64,000 nucleotides of DNA, from NCBI RefSeq assembly GCF_000378125.1, contig NZ_KB899242.1:992001-1056000 (forward strand), in the 5' to 3' direction. Positions within the stretch are counted from its first letter, which is position 1. Every line of letters begins with the position of its first letter. Below are positions 10,872 to 53,526 of the stretch, piece after piece. Below the pieces are notes generated by a model. It did not search any database and was not told the DNA's origin. It saw only the letters and a program-made list of their open reading frames with translations. Position numbers and translations under genes: made by a program. The DNA is from Rudaea cellulosilytica DSM 22992. Its GTDB lineage: Bacteria > Pseudomonadota > Gammaproteobacteria > Xanthomonadales > Rhodanobacteraceae.

Positions 10872-11651
10872 ATGCCGACTCCTGCCTTCCTCGATTCCGC
10901 GCTCGATGTCGCCAGGCAGGCCGCGCAAGCCGCCGCGGAAGTGATCGCGCGGCATTGGCGCGCCGGTACCGAGGTCGAAATCAAATCCGACCAGACTCCG
11001 GTGACGATCGCCGACCGCGAAGCCGAAGCGGCGATCAAGCACGTGCTGCGCGCGGCGTTCCCCGAGCACGCCTACTACGGCGAAGAGGAAGGCCGCGAGG
11101 GTGACGGCGATTTTCTGTGGCTGATCGACCCGATCGACGGCACGCGCAGCTTCGTACGCGGCTATCCGATGTTCTCGACCCAGATCGCGCTGATGCATCG
11201 CGGCGAACTCGTGCTCGGCGTGTCGAGCGCATCCGAATTTGGCGAACTCGCCTGGGCGCGCAAGGGTGGAGGTGCGCTCCTCGGCGGCAAGCCGATCCGG
11301 GTCGCGGCGACGAACGCATTCGATGCGCAGACCGCGATCTCGTTCGGCAACGTGAAGACGCTTTCGCGCGGCCCCGGTTGGAACGCGCTCGCGGGACTGG
11401 TCCAGCGCTGCGGTCGCACGCGCGGCTACGGCGATTTCTACCACTATCACCTGCTCGCGCGCGGCAGCCTCGATCTGGTCATCGAATCCGACGTCAATAT
11501 CCTCGACATCGCCGCGCTCGCCGTGATCGTGCGCGAAGCGGGCGGCACGTTCACCGATCTCGGTGGACATGCGTTGTCGCTGGCGACGACGAGCGTGCTC
11601 GCCGGCACGCCGGCGCTGCATGCGCAGGCGCTGCAGCTCGGGCTGACTTAG
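10872..11651 (+). CDS. hisN: Histidinol-phosphatase / inositol-phosphatase family protein (HisN type)
   Basis: A 259-residue protein of the inositol-monophosphatase superfamily. Metal-site motifs are GEEEGREGD, WLIDPIDGTRSFVRGYPMF and, near the end, DVNILDIAALAVIVREAGG. The form SFVRGYPMF and YGDFYHYHLLARG match HisN-type histidinol-phosphate phosphatases, which complete an alternative histidine route in organisms lacking the HisB N-terminal phosphatase; general inositol or sugar phosphatase activity is the alternative. The ATG at 10872 is used; a TTG at 10863 is in frame but weaker. There is no clear Shine-Dalgarno. The gene is followed after 16 bp by a TIR element. Confidence 0.85.
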   Translation: MPTPAFLDSALDVARQAAQAAAEVIARHWRAGTEVEIKSDQTPVTIADREAEAAIKHVLRAAFPEHAYYGEEEGREGDGDFLWLIDPIDGTRSFVRGYPMFSTQIALMHRGELVLGVSSASEFGELAWARKGGGALLGGKPIRVAATNAFDAQTAISFGNVKTLSRGPGWNALAGLVQRCGRTRGYGDFYHYHLLARGSLDLVIESDVNILDIAALAVIVREAGGTFTDLGGHALSLATTSVLAGTPALHAQALQLGLT

Positions 11652-11667
11652 CCGGCGACAGAAAACT

Positions 11668-11893
11668 AGAACCTATCTCAAAACGTAGCGAGCGAAGACA
11701 GTTCGTGCGTCGCCGGAGCGCAGGAACCGGAGTTTACAGACGGTAAATGAGGATTACATGCCGCTCCTGCGGCATGCCCTGCGGGCCAGCTTCGCTGTTC
11801 GCTTCGGCATCCTGCCTCCGCAGTCCGAGCGCCGCCGGCGCGCCCGATTTTGGTTTGAATCGGGTCGAGCGCAGTAGTTTTGAGACAGGTTCT
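11668..11893. repeat. Long TIR element, copy 1 (226 bp)
   Basis: The ends are inverted repeats: 17 bp at 11668-11684 (AGAACCTATCTCAAAAC) and its complement at 11877-11893, with one mismatch. The interior is shared in blocks with the element at 45260-45472, for example GTAGCGAGCGAAGA, GGAGCGCAGGAACCGGAG, TGAGGATTAC and CATCCTGCCTCCGCAGTCC. No protein is encoded. It fills the gap between convergent hisN and the methyltransferase gene, and its right end supplies two bases of that gene's stop codon. Confidence 0.88.
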
Positions 11894-12665
11894 ACACCAG
11901 CGCCGCGACCATCACGCGCTTGCCGTGACGCAGCTGCTCGTAGCCATCCGCCGGCACGGGCAGCACATAGGCTTCGCGGAAGCCGACTGCACGCAGCAAC
12001 CACAGCAATCCCTCGGTGCTCGGCGCGAGGCAGACGCCGGTGACGCTGGCTTCCGGCGCATGCGTTTCGTCGACCTCGTCGATGATGCCGAAGCAGCCCT
12101 TGAGCGGACGCACGTATTCGTACGAGCCCCAATCGACCATGCCGGACATGTGCGGCACGACCTGGGTCTCGATCACGCAGGCGCGTCGCGCGAGCGCGCG
12201 CGCGACGCGCAGCGCACCGATCGGATTCTCGAGGTGATAGAGCAGGCCGAACATCAGCACGAGATCGTGCACCCCGTCGGTCTCGGGCTTCAGCGCGAAC
12301 ACGTCGCGCTGGCGCGTCTTGATCGCGTCCAGTTCGTAGATGCTCGCGAGCAACGCGGCGTCTTCGACATGCTCGTCGCGCGCATCGACCGAGGTGACCT
12401 GACCGAAACCCGCGCGCGCGAGCTGCAACGAAAACCAGCCCTGGTGGCAGGCCAGATCGATCGCGCTCAGCGCGCCGCGATCGCCGGCGAACCTGTCGGC
12501 GAGGAATTTATCGAGCATGCGCGCGCGCGTGTGGTGGATCGCATCGACGCGGCCGTCATGCGTGCTCGTCAACGTGCGTCCGTCCGGCAACGCCAGCGGA
12601 TAGAACCAGGATTTTGCCAACGCGCGCGCATACAGCGCTTCGCGGTCGGGGGTGGCTGTCGACAT
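11892..12665 (-). CDS. Class I SAM-dependent methyltransferase (CmoB-like fold)
   Basis: A 257-residue protein. The N-terminal WFYPLALPDG resembles the CmoB/DUF1698 group. The SAM-binding core is visible: AIDLACHQGWFSLQLARAG (motif I), VTSVDARDEHVEDA (motif II) and HDLVLMFGLLYHLENPIGAL (motif IV/post IV). The substrate is not identifiable; a tRNA wobble carboxymethyl transfer like CmoB is only one possibility because the protein is shorter than CmoB (~320). The TAG stop lies within the end of the TIR element. The start at 12665 (MSTATPD) is followed upstream by a 153-bp gap with nothing recognised. Confidence 0.8.
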   Translation of the reverse strand: MSTATPDREALYARALAKSWFYPLALPDGRTLTSTHDGRVDAIHHTRARMLDKFLADRFAGDRGALSAIDLACHQGWFSLQLARAGFGQVTSVDARDEHVEDAALLASIYELDAIKTRQRDVFALKPETDGVHDLVLMFGLLYHLENPIGALRVARALARRACVIETQVVPHMSGMVDWGSYEYVRPLKGCFGIIDEVDETHAPEASVTGVCLAPSTEGLLWLLRAVGFREAYVLPVPADGYEQLRHGKRVMVAALV

Positions 12666-20410: not shown

Positions 20411-22542
<2,132 letters not shown>

Positions 22543-22543
<1 letters not shown>

Positions 22544-22583
22544 GAACCTGTCCCAAAGCTACTACGCTTTGAGGACAGGTTCT
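22543..22583. repeat. Short TIR-only element, copy 3 (41 bp)
   Basis: AGAACCTGTCCCAAAGC (22543-22559), a 6-nt spacer TACTAC, then GCTTTGAGGACAGGTTCT (22566-22583). The arms match the terminal repeats of the two long elements, and the interior is missing. It forms a strong hairpin at the fadH 3' end, in the gap between convergent fadH and the TIGR03118 gene. Base 22543 is the A of the fadH TGA stop. Confidence 0.88.
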
Positions 22584-22639
22584 GAATCCGGCGGGCCGGC
22601 GGCAGCCGCTGCGCGTCGCTCCATCGGGGCGTCTGCTCT

Positions 22640-45241: not shown

Positions 45242-45259
45242 GGAAAGAAAACTTCCCTC

Positions 45260-45472
45260 AGAACCTGTCTTCAAAGCGTAGCGAGCGAAGAGAATTTGCG
45301 CGTCGCCGGAGCGCAGGAACCGGAGCATACAAGCAGTATGTGAGGATTACTCGCCGCTTCCGCGGCTCGCCCTCCGGGCCGGCTTCGCCGTTCGCTCCGG
45401 CATCCTGCCTCCGCAGTCCGAGCACCGCCGGCGCGCAAATTATCGAGCGCAGTAGCTTTGAGGACAGGTTCT
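45260..45472. repeat. Long TIR element, copy 2 (213 bp)
   Basis: The terminal repeats are AGAACCTGTCTTCAAAGC (45260-45277) and GCTTTGAGGACAGGTTCT (45455-45472), one mismatch in 18. The interior shares long blocks with the element at 11668-11893. No protein is encoded. It fills the gap between convergent porin and DAHP synthase genes; its last base (45472) is also the last base of the DAHP synthase stop codon on the minus strand. Confidence 0.88.
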
Positions 45473-46884
45473 CAGGGCCTGCCGCCGCGCTTGCGCACGA
45501 TCAGCATCGCAATCTCGAGCGACTGTTCGTAATTGAGACGCGGATCGACGCTCGACTTGTAGGCACGGGCAAGATCCACTTCGGTCAGGTCGCGCGCGCC
45601 GCCGAGGCATTCGGTGACATTCTCGCCGGTCAGTTCGAGATGCACGCCGCCGAGGCGTGTGCCGCAGGCGGCGTGGATATCGAAGGCATGGTCGAGTTCG
45701 GCGCGGATGTTCTCGAAGCGCCGCGTCTTCACGCCGGACGGCAGCGTCTCGCCGTTGCCGTGCATCGGATCGCAGCACCAGAGCACGCGTTTGCCTTCGG
45801 CCTTGACGGCATTCAGATGCTGCGGCAACTCAGCTTCGACCTTGGCCGCGCCCATGCGCGTGATCAGGGTCAGCCGGCCTGGTTCGTTGTGCGGATTGAG
45901 CGCATCGATCGTGCGCAGCAGCTGGTCCGGCTTCACCCCGGGGCCGAGCTTGAGCCCCATCGGATTCTGGATGCCGCGGCAGTACTCGACGTGGGCGCCG
46001 TCGAGCTGCGCGGTACGCATGCCGATCCACGGGAAATGCGTGGATAGGTTGAACCAACCCGGGTTGCGCGGCACCTCGCGCGTCACTGCGCCTTCGTAGT
46101 TGAGCAGCAACGCCTCATGCGAAGTATAGAAATCCACTTTCTGATATGACGGCGATTCGCCGGCCAGCGTTTCCATGAAGCGCACTGCCTCGCCGATGGC
46201 TTCGACCATGCGCTGATACTCTTCCTGCAGTGGCGAGTGCTTGACCCATTCGAGGTCCCAATATTCTGGGTGATGCAGGTCCGCGAAGCCGCCATCGATC
46301 AGCGCGCGCACGAAGTTCATCGTCAGCGCCGAGCGAGAATGCGCTTCGATCAGGCGCTGCGGATCCGGCTCGCGTGCGACCGCAGTGAATTCGGGAGCGT
46401 TGACGATGTCGCCGCGATAGCACGGCAAGGTCACGCCGCTGCGCGTCTCGGTGTCGGCCGAGCGCGGCTTGGCGTACTGGCCGGCGAACCGGCCGACGCG
46501 CACGACCGGAAGCTTCAAACCGTGCACCAGCACGAGGCTCATCTGCAGCAGCACCTTGAGCCGGTTGGAGATGATCGGCGAGGTGCAATCGGCGAAGCTC
46601 TCAGCGCAGTCCCCACCCTGCAGCAGGAAGCAGCGTCCCTCCTGCGCTTCGGCCAGCTTGCGCTTGAGCGCGAGCACTTCCCACGACGTCACCAGCGGCG
46701 GCAATTCACGCAACTGTGCGACGGCGCGGTCGAGCACGGCTGCGTCCGCATAAACCGGCTGTTGCACGGCCGTGCGCGACTGCCATGACGTCGGTGACCA
46801 AGATTCCGCCGCGCTCTGTCTCGTTGCTTCTGGACTCGTTGCCGCCATGGTGTCGTCGCCGACGTGGGAAGGGTTTTTCATCAT
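45472..46884 (-). CDS. Class II 3-deoxy-7-phosphoheptulonate synthase
   Basis: A 470-residue class II (plant-like) DAHP synthase. Motifs include LQGGDCAESFADC with the metal-binding Cys, RVGRFAGQYAKPRS, LPCYRGDIVN, FYTSHEALLLNYE, RGIQNPMGLKLGPG, WCCDPMHGNGE and GVHLELTGENVTEC. It starts the shikimate pathway by joining PEP and erythrose-4-phosphate. Class II rather than AroF/G/H is normal in Xanthomonadales. The start is given as 46884; a Met at 46848 (MAATSPEA) is an alternative. It is downstream of dsbB on the same strand. Confidence 0.97.
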   Translation of the reverse strand: MMKNPSHVGDDTMAATSPEATRQSAAESWSPTSWQSRTAVQQPVYADAAVLDRAVAQLRELPPLVTSWEVLALKRKLAEAQEGRCFLLQGGDCAESFADCTSPIISNRLKVLLQMSLVLVHGLKLPVVRVGRFAGQYAKPRSADTETRSGVTLPCYRGDIVNAPEFTAVAREPDPQRLIEAHSRSALTMNFVRALIDGGFADLHHPEYWDLEWVKHSPLQEEYQRMVEAIGEAVRFMETLAGESPSYQKVDFYTSHEALLLNYEGAVTREVPRNPGWFNLSTHFPWIGMRTAQLDGAHVEYCRGIQNPMGLKLGPGVKPDQLLRTIDALNPHNEPGRLTLITRMGAAKVEAELPQHLNAVKAEGKRVLWCCDPMHGNGETLPSGVKTRRFENIRAELDHAFDIHAACGTRLGGVHLELTGENVTECLGGARDLTEVDLARAYKSSVDPRLNYEQSLEIAMLIVRKRGGRP

Positions 46885-50406: not shown

Positions 50407-51042
50407 TTACTTCGAGTACAACTCGACGATCAGCGATTCGTTGATGTCGCTCGGCAGATCCGAGCGTTCCGGCAGCGCCTTGAGCGTACCGGCGAACTTG
50501 TTCGCGTCGACTTCGAGCCACGCCGGGGCCAGGTCCATTTCCTGCGACAGGGTCAGCGCTTCCTTGATGCGCAGCTGGCTGCGCGACTTCTCGGCGACGG
50601 AGATCTGGTCGCCGGCCTGGACCGCGTACGACGGCAGGTTGACCTTCTTGCCGTTGACCTCGATCGCCTTGTGCGCGACGAGCTGGCGGGCCTGGGCACG
50701 GGTCACCGCGAAACCCATGCGGTAGACGATATTGTCCAGACGCGATTCGAGCAGACGCAGCAGGTTCTCACCGGTGTTGCCGCGGGTCTTCGACGCCTTG
50801 ACGTAGTAGTTGCTGAACTGGCGCTCGAGCAAGCCGTAGATGCGCTTGACCTTCTGCTTCTCGCGCAGCTGCACCGCGTAGTCCGACAGGCGCGACTTCT
50901 TCGCACCGCCGCCGGCGCCATGCTGGCCGGGCTTGTTCTCGAGCTTGCACTTCGAGTCGAGCGCGCGAGCCGGGCTCTTGAGGCTGAGGTCGGCGCCTTC
51001 GCGGCGCGCGAGCTTGCAGGTGGGACCGATGTAACGTGCCAT
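50407..51042 (-). CDS. rpsD: 30S ribosomal protein S4
   Basis: A 211-residue S4 with [18 protein letters not shown] and the S4 RNA-binding domain [23 protein letters not shown]. It nucleates 30S assembly by binding 16S rRNA and in enterics represses the alpha operon. The true start is 51042 (MARYIG); longer readings are spacer. A 176-bp spacer with two GGCC palindromes lies upstream. Confidence 0.98.
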
Positions 51043-52179: not shown

Positions 52180-53526
52180 TTAGCGCGCCGGGCTTCCGCC
52201 GCGGCCGTAGCCCTTCAGATTCGCCTTCTTCAGCAGGCTTTCGTACTGATGCGACACCAAATGCGCCTGCACCTGCGCGGTGAAATCCATGACCACCACC
52301 ACCACGATCAGCAACGAGGTGCCGCCGAAATAGAACGGCACATGGAAGTACTGCTGCAGGAACGTCGGCACCACGCAGACCAGCACGAGGTACAGGGCCC
52401 CGGCTCCGGTCAGGCGCGTCAGCACGCCGTCGATGTATTCGGCCGTCGCCTTGCCCGGGCGGATGCCCGGAATCAGCGCGCCCGACTTCTTCAGGTTCTC
52501 CGCAGTCTCGTTTGAATTGAACACGAGCGCGGTGTAGAAGAACGCGAACACGATGATCAGGATCGCGTACAGGATCTCGTACAGCGGCTCGCCCGGCGCA
52601 ATCGCCGCGGTCAGCTGCTGCAGCCAGCGGATGTTCGTGCTGCCGCTGAACCATGACGATGCCGTCGCCGGAAACATAATCAGCGACGAGGCAAAAATCG
52701 CCGGAATCACGCCCGACATGTTGAGCTTGAGCGGCAGGTGCGAACTCTGGTTCATGTACGCCTGGCCGCCACCCTGGCGCCGCGCGTAGTTGACCGTGAT
52801 GCGGCGCTGGCCGCGCTCGACGAAGACGACGAACGCCGTCACCGCGACCACGATCAGCAGCACGAGCAGGACCTTGATGAAGTTGAGCTCGCCGTTCTGC
52901 GCCATCTGCAGGGTGTGATAGGTCGCACCCGGCAAACCGGCGACGATGCCAGCAAAGATCAGCATCGAGATGCCGTTGCCGATGCCGCGCTCGGTGATCT
53001 GCTCGCCCAGCCACATAAGGAACAGCGTGCCCGAGGTCAACGCGATCATCGAGGTCATGATGAAGCCGAAGCCCGGGGCGTAAACCACCGATTGGCCGTT
53101 CGCTGTCTGGTGCATGAGCCAGCTCGAGATGCCGAACGACTGCACTGCAGCCAAGACCACGGTGAAGTAACGCGTCCACTGGGTCAGCTTGCGCCGACCG
53201 GACTCGCCTTCCTTGCGCAGCGACTGCAGCGACGGCACCACCTGGGCGACCATCTGCACGATGATCGACGCCGAGATGTACGGCACGACGCCGAGCGCGA
53301 AGATCGAGAAGCGCGCGAGCGCGCCGCCCGAGAACATGTTGGCCAGATCGATCAACCCGCCGCCACCGCCGAGCAGCGAGGTCATCGCCGCCGACTTGAC
53401 GCCCGGCACCGGAATGAACGAGCCGAGGCGATAGACGACGAGCGCACCGATGAGGAACAGGATGCGCTGCTTGAGCTCGGTCAATTTGCCGAGGCCTGCG
53501 AGCATGCTGGCTTGGGAAGCCGCCAT
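52180..53526 (-). CDS. secY: Protein translocase subunit SecY
   Basis: A 448-residue, ten-helix Sec[24 protein letters not shown], plug-region [60 protein letters not shown], and a late cytoplasmic loop [15 protein letters not shown]. It forms the protein-conducting channel with SecE and SecG. It is 12 bp after rplO. Confidence 0.98.

Follow-up and report, generated by a model that had tools for sequence, protein, structure and literature searches.

Small inverted-repeat elements with an sX9-like RNA core often adjoin stop codons, and then in one preferred orientation, in Rudaea cellulosilytica and its relatives

In the genome of Rudaea cellulosilytica DSM 22992, the last base of the stop codon of a fadH-like gene (positions 20507-22543, plus strand) is also the first base of a small hairpin. 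Two longer copies of this inverted-repeat element lie in the window, that is, the whole 64,000-nucleotide stretch of DNA analyzed here. An earlier note on this DNA had claimed that all three copies lie between convergent genes and begin inside a stop codon, and had offered as explanations target choice at gene 3′ ends or selection for a two-way terminator or an mRNA 3′ stabilizer. We asked why these elements meet stop codons, and the relevant features are as follows.

11649-11651, plus strand: true TAG stop of the hisN-like gene, 16 bp before copy 1 and not shared with it
11668-11893, plus strand: copy 1, long element of 226 bp, with its L end at 11668 and its R end at 11893, at the methyltransferase stop
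11667-11668 and 11893-11894: TA on both sides of copy 1
11671-11748, minus strand: sX9-like stretch of copy 1 (37.1 bits, under the 44-bit cut-off)
11892-11894, minus strand: TAG stop of the methyltransferase gene (11892-12665), with two bases in common with copy 1
22541-22543, plus strand: TGA stop of the fadH-like gene and left copy of a TGA direct repeat, the right copy being 22583-22585
22543-22583, plus strand: copy 3, solo hairpin of 41 bp, arms without a core
45258-45260 and 45472-45474: TCA on both sides of copy 2
45260-45472, plus strand: copy 2, long element of 213 bp, with its R end at the DAHP synthase stop
45266-45341, minus strand: sX9-like stretch of copy 2 (39.8 bits, under the 44-bit cut-off)
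45472-45474, minus strand: TGA stop of the class II DAHP synthase, with one base in common with copy 2

All three gaps are indeed convergent, and the shared A was confirmed both at the TGA of the fadH-like gene and at that of the DAHP synthase (45474-45472). The AG of copy 1 is held in common with the TAG of the methyltransferase (11894-11892) but not with the hisN-like TAG 16 bp away, so only the methyltransferase shares its stop there. In each copy, a single end touches a stop: the porin stop lies 18 bp from copy 2, and the far gene ends 56 bp past copy 3. Gene calls came from a home-made script based on codon usage instead of a standard annotation program. The flank repeats TA, TCA, and TGA fit target duplication. 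The motif AGAACCTG occurred 7 times in the window versus 0.80 expected; two of these occurrences (50761-50768 and 52492-52499) fall within called genes and are isolated matches, not elements. A scan for an intrinsic terminator (hairpin plus U-run), made at the three window sites only, found none. The solo hairpins, namely, the one in the window and two elsewhere in the genome (C2:118630 and C3:266615), resemble full elements collapsed by core deletion and keep a short loop of the CTAC/GTAG type.

The 4.34-Mb genome holds about 50 small hairpin elements of this family. BLAST and pattern matches gave 54 rows, and after removal of one spurious intragenic hairpin, 53 copies were kept; this set is incomplete, as 40 of 116 and 40 of 107 candidates were scored. 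It leaves out, among others, two solo-like copies (C1:1163710 and C1:1530892) and five degenerate or partial ones (C2:968930, C5:50944, C2:970476, C1:142535, and C2:448425). The 53 copies comprise 19 long elements (207-235 bp), 31 short elements (114-161 bp), and the 3 solo hairpins. Their gaps are mostly tandem (25 ++ and 13 --, together 38), with 9 convergent (+-) and 6 divergent (-+); a preference for convergent gaps was therefore rejected for the collected copies, and the earlier expectation drawn from three of three copies in the window does not generalize. At C1:1583796, two convergent genes have their TAG stops at either end of one element. Contact with stops, in contrast, was widespread: 34 of the 53 copies had a stop within 0-1 bp when junction tables were read by eye, and 36 of 53 did under an automated rule (-9 to +3 bp). 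The same automated rule placed 46 of 94 elements at stops in nine relatives, where 120 loci among the matches listed were sampled and those that lacked a detected element or were called intragenic were set aside. The relatives varied (G011, 12/19; G010, 10/17; G012, 9/17; G013, 6/11; G003, 2/13; G002, 0/4; and G007, G009, and G006 together, 7/13). The element was matched in all 15 relatives of the same genus and, counted by genus, in 14 of 39.

One way for an element to end up at a stop is to create it by truncating the gene. For fadH and the methyltransferase, this was rejected, since relatives that have no element at the site stop at the same codon. The fadH stop was found there in 28 of 28 relatives' loci shown, the closest with 89.6 percent identity over the gene end, although for matches that ended early the position was extrapolated over as much as about 30 nt. 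The methyltransferase stop was at the same codon in 9 of 9 homologue rows from 8 genomes; in one of the relatives (G012), an element match lies about 90 nt further on. Among DAHP synthase homologues, that of G002 shares the stop position and that of G010 ends one codon before it, the rest ending elsewhere or not being resolved, so the rejection of truncation at this gene draws on these two.

The elements are probably mobile. They have terminal inverted repeats, as IS5-type MITEs do, with a mean identity of 0.87 between the two arms of an element (137 elements). TNA and CTAG targets are grouped with IS5. TNA/TA flank repeats are present at the three window copies and are unclear at many others, a few of which suggest 4 bp; judged without a systematic count, a clear repeat is missing at many copies away from stops and at some at stops. 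Among IS with DUF4096 in the same bacterial family, all 13 G030 copies examined were flanked by TNA at each end, identical in 10, and the G031 copies had TA within CTAG, which follows partly from the construction of the search pattern; two G030 loci and one G031 locus yielded no end pair. Across this family, 21 of 147 genomes contain DUF4096. When seven IS terminal repeats were compared with element arms, only that of G087 against an element of G086 beat every shuffle, the G086 arm having been added after the likeness was noticed; for the others, shuffles did as well in 2 of 300 cases (G031) and 71 of 300 cases (G030), and the rest were weak. In the G087-G086 pair, 12 of the 14 positions compared agree between an sX9-type arm (L462, G086) and an IS terminal repeat (L169, G087) from two genera of one family. 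Two further observations stand against movement by an IS5-like transposase: searches of the R. cellulosilytica genome gave no match to PF05598, PF13340, or PF01609, and IS copies were rarely at stops (1/13 in G030 and 2/19 in G031). IS loci with PF05598 had no terminal repeats matching the element.

We nevertheless consider it somewhat probable that the element is an sX9-type inverted repeat moved by an IS5-like transposase, landing at stop codons and kept in orientation by selection. Such a transposase, acting in trans, would cut at TNA or CTAG and duplicate TNA or TA. Where gaps are short and GC-rich, the stop would usually be the sole such site outside coding sequence, and duplication together with the first G of the element would regenerate TGA, TAA, or TAG, so that insertion at a stop would leave the gene intact. 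The gaps that hold elements have a median length of 49 nt and a median of 2 TNA sites. With these gaps alone taken into the null, 9.6 of 53 copies were expected at stops if any position was allowed, 29.4 if TNA and TA sites were (P = 0.036), and 32.1 if only TNA sites outside coding sequence were (P = 0.25), against the 34 observed. The junctions displayed for these 34 copies contain 39 stops, including a few on the far side: 22 TGA, 14 TAG, and 3 TAA (window usage for comparison, 39 TGA, 26 TAA, and 8 TAG), the mix expected if the G of the element completes TA to TAG. Target choice at gene 3′ ends is supported to the extent that short, GC-rich gaps often offer no TNA site besides the stop, which a duplicated TNA restores. 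It leaves over an excess in long gaps: where gaps were at least 100 nt, 7 of 12 elements were at stops versus 1.7 expected (P = 0.0001), and 5 of 9 versus 2.1 when the 20 nt before starts were excluded (P = 0.007). A pure motif account is limited by this excess and by the orientation of the elements.

The core is asymmetric, so the R and L ends can be told apart. At stops in ten genomes, the R end faced the gene in 67 elements and the L end in 9, with three further elements having stops at both ends and three being solo hairpins. Of the 65 elements not at stops, 36 had a facing gene end and split 18:18, the other 29 being divergent (Fisher, 2.7 × 10−5 for 67:9 versus 18:18). The bias was seen in R. 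cellulosilytica (30:2 at stops versus 6:5 away; Fisher, 0.008) and in the nine relatives (37:7 at stops), and it persisted when sites with shared flanks were merged (63:9). It was found in tandem (54:5) and convergent (13:4) gaps and with TAG (21:3), TGA (38:4), and TAA (8:2). In tandem gaps, elements 4-30 nt after stops showed no bias (6:7). Exceptions were G003, with 1:1 at stops, and G002, with no element at a stop; the two L-end cases in R. cellulosilytica (C2:305522 and C4:180812) are insertions at stop/start junctions, with the stop of the upstream gene on one side of the element, the start of the downstream gene on the other, and both codons preserved. Operon polarity as the cause was not supported, the bias being 18:3 where more than 60 nt separated the element from the next gene. 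Among loci found by the sX9 model in other genera, 9 of 28 had the R end no more than 2 bp from a same-strand stop, and none had the L end there (arms were located by a rough search, and L467 and L489 are one place). The coupling of element orientation to the stop codon is new here.

In the at-stop (R-end) orientation, the strand transcribed from the gene is that of the Rfam family sX9 (RF02228), a small RNA of Xanthomonas. All 76 positions of this model align with the left part of the element, on one strand. In the R. cellulosilytica genome, there were 26 matches at an E value of ≤0.001, one of them over the gathering cut-off (45.7 bits). Matches occurred in 18 of 121 genomes and 10 of 57 genera, its own included. 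Exact core matches, among the 80 of 86 stretches listed, came from Pseudolysobacter, Rudaea, Rhodanobacter, Rhodanobacteraceae, Lysobacteraceae, Nevskia, and Billgrantia, as well as one Spirochaetaceae bin and unnamed proteobacterial bins; the records labelled Spirochaetaceae, Billgrantia, and Nevskia (L359, L378, and L351) are candidates for transfer or mis-binning. With all instances counted, sX9 reportedly ranks with the most abundant sRNAs (PMC9029176). In the literature searched, which did not extend to the original sX9 description, nothing presents this RNA as belonging to a mobile element.

The arms are variable and yet paired, with identity between elements averaging 0.50 against the 0.87 within them. 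Among 127 pairs of R. cellulosilytica copies whose cores are 93 percent or more identical, arm identity is 50 percent or less in 72; arms and cores are thus decoupled, and gene conversion between cores or a swap of arms may be responsible. Evolution of the arms in place at shared sites found no support: of 8 pairs inspected for which the flanks are homologous, most are unlike in size or core, as if the two elements had inserted separately. In an alignment of 55 of the 61 listed short copies (6 of atypical length were left out), paired double changes were found at 21 of 45 base pairs, of which 16 belong to the arms and 5 to the core. The 361 double-change cells exceeded all 500 shuffles (122.7 on shuffling) and the at most 66 of slid pairings, although the structure was derived from the same alignment and relatedness inflates the shuffle test. 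The apical core pair was UA in 24 copies, GC in 18, and AU in 13, with none broken. Neither counts of G-U versus A-C pairs nor fold energy gave a clear answer as to which strand is the RNA: one strand was predicted to be more stable at 60-100 nt and the other at 40 nt and for the element as a whole, and the antisense alignment folds better. Predicted fold energies do not explain the orientation, and they neither back nor exclude an effect within reach of the ribosome.

Such an effect is our preferred, though unproven, cause of the orientation. At a stop, the RNA stem would be within reach of the terminating ribosome, selection would keep mainly the orientation that places the sX9 strand in the mRNA, and beyond that reach orientation would have no effect. 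Ribosome stalling has been reported for REPs that lie no more than 15 nt from a stop (PMC12306157), which suggests this reading. Alternatively, the transposition complex may join the R end to stops, for instance because the target is asymmetric or because insertion is coupled to transcription or translation, with position and orientation arising together. The restriction of the bias to stops and the excess in long gaps speak for such directed insertion, as do the at-stop copies of R. cellulosilytica whose far side spans about 100 nt or more, 7 of 7 of which have the R end at the stop. Because TNA and CTAG are symmetric sites, each copy has near-identical arms, all three stop classes are biased, and the IS relatives show no preference for stops, we regard it as rather unlikely. 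We give a similarly low probability to a one-way functional 3′ UTR that ends or stabilizes the upstream mRNA or releases the sX9 small RNA. The common strand with sX9, the compensatory pairs, and a report that several sX9 genes are up-regulated by copper in X. campestris (PMC10924375) argue for it; the lack of a hairpin followed by a U-run at the sites of the three window copies and the 6:7 split 4-30 nt after stops argue against it. That split also speaks against the mRNA 3′ stabilizer of the earlier note in its simple form; a one-way RNA role in the 3′ UTR may still apply, the transcribed strand being that of sX9. The two-way terminator of the earlier note is not supported, given the mostly tandem copies, the terminator scan of the window, and the single preferred orientation, which is unlike a symmetric device. 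A purely neutral account, in which nothing but the target motif and the removal of harmful insertions is at work, fits the overall stop counts under the TNA null, but it is very improbable, as it yields neither the orientation counts nor the long-gap excess.

We read the element as a MITE of the IS5-like kind that carries an sX9 RNA core. What it has in common with IS5-family MITEs are TNA or TA repeats in the flanks, clear at the window copies, and terminal repeats broadly resembling those of IS from the same bacterial family; it differs from them in its conserved structured core, in arms decoupled from that core, and in that no partner was found in its own genome. The sX9 model spans only one side of the inverted-repeat element. 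The YPAL (RU-2) repeats of Yersinia reportedly insert close after stop codons, according to a 2006 study. By their description, these are also small mobile repeats with target duplications, with internal inverted repeats and duplications of 3-26 bp (PMC2229807) in contrast to terminal repeats and 2-4 bp here. GTAG REPs are described near gene 3′ ends, where they often supply a TAG stop (PMC3733652), but they are palindromes of 20-40 bp with GTAG at one end and are tied to RAYTs, whereas the present elements reach 235 bp, 50 of the 53 copies measuring 114-235 bp, and have arms of the GAACC type.

These observations link sX9, a widely annotated small RNA with no assigned role, to an inverted-repeat, probably mobile element, and they show a way for a TNA-cutting element to reach stop codons without harm to the gene. 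The orientation rule is testable and separates insertion bias from selection where translation ends. More tentatively, the element may be a modular mobile RNA, with an sX9 core, exchangeable self-complementary arms, and orientation-dependent insertion or survival at stops; if so, genes would acquire ready-made 3′ RNA structures that start at the stop codon.
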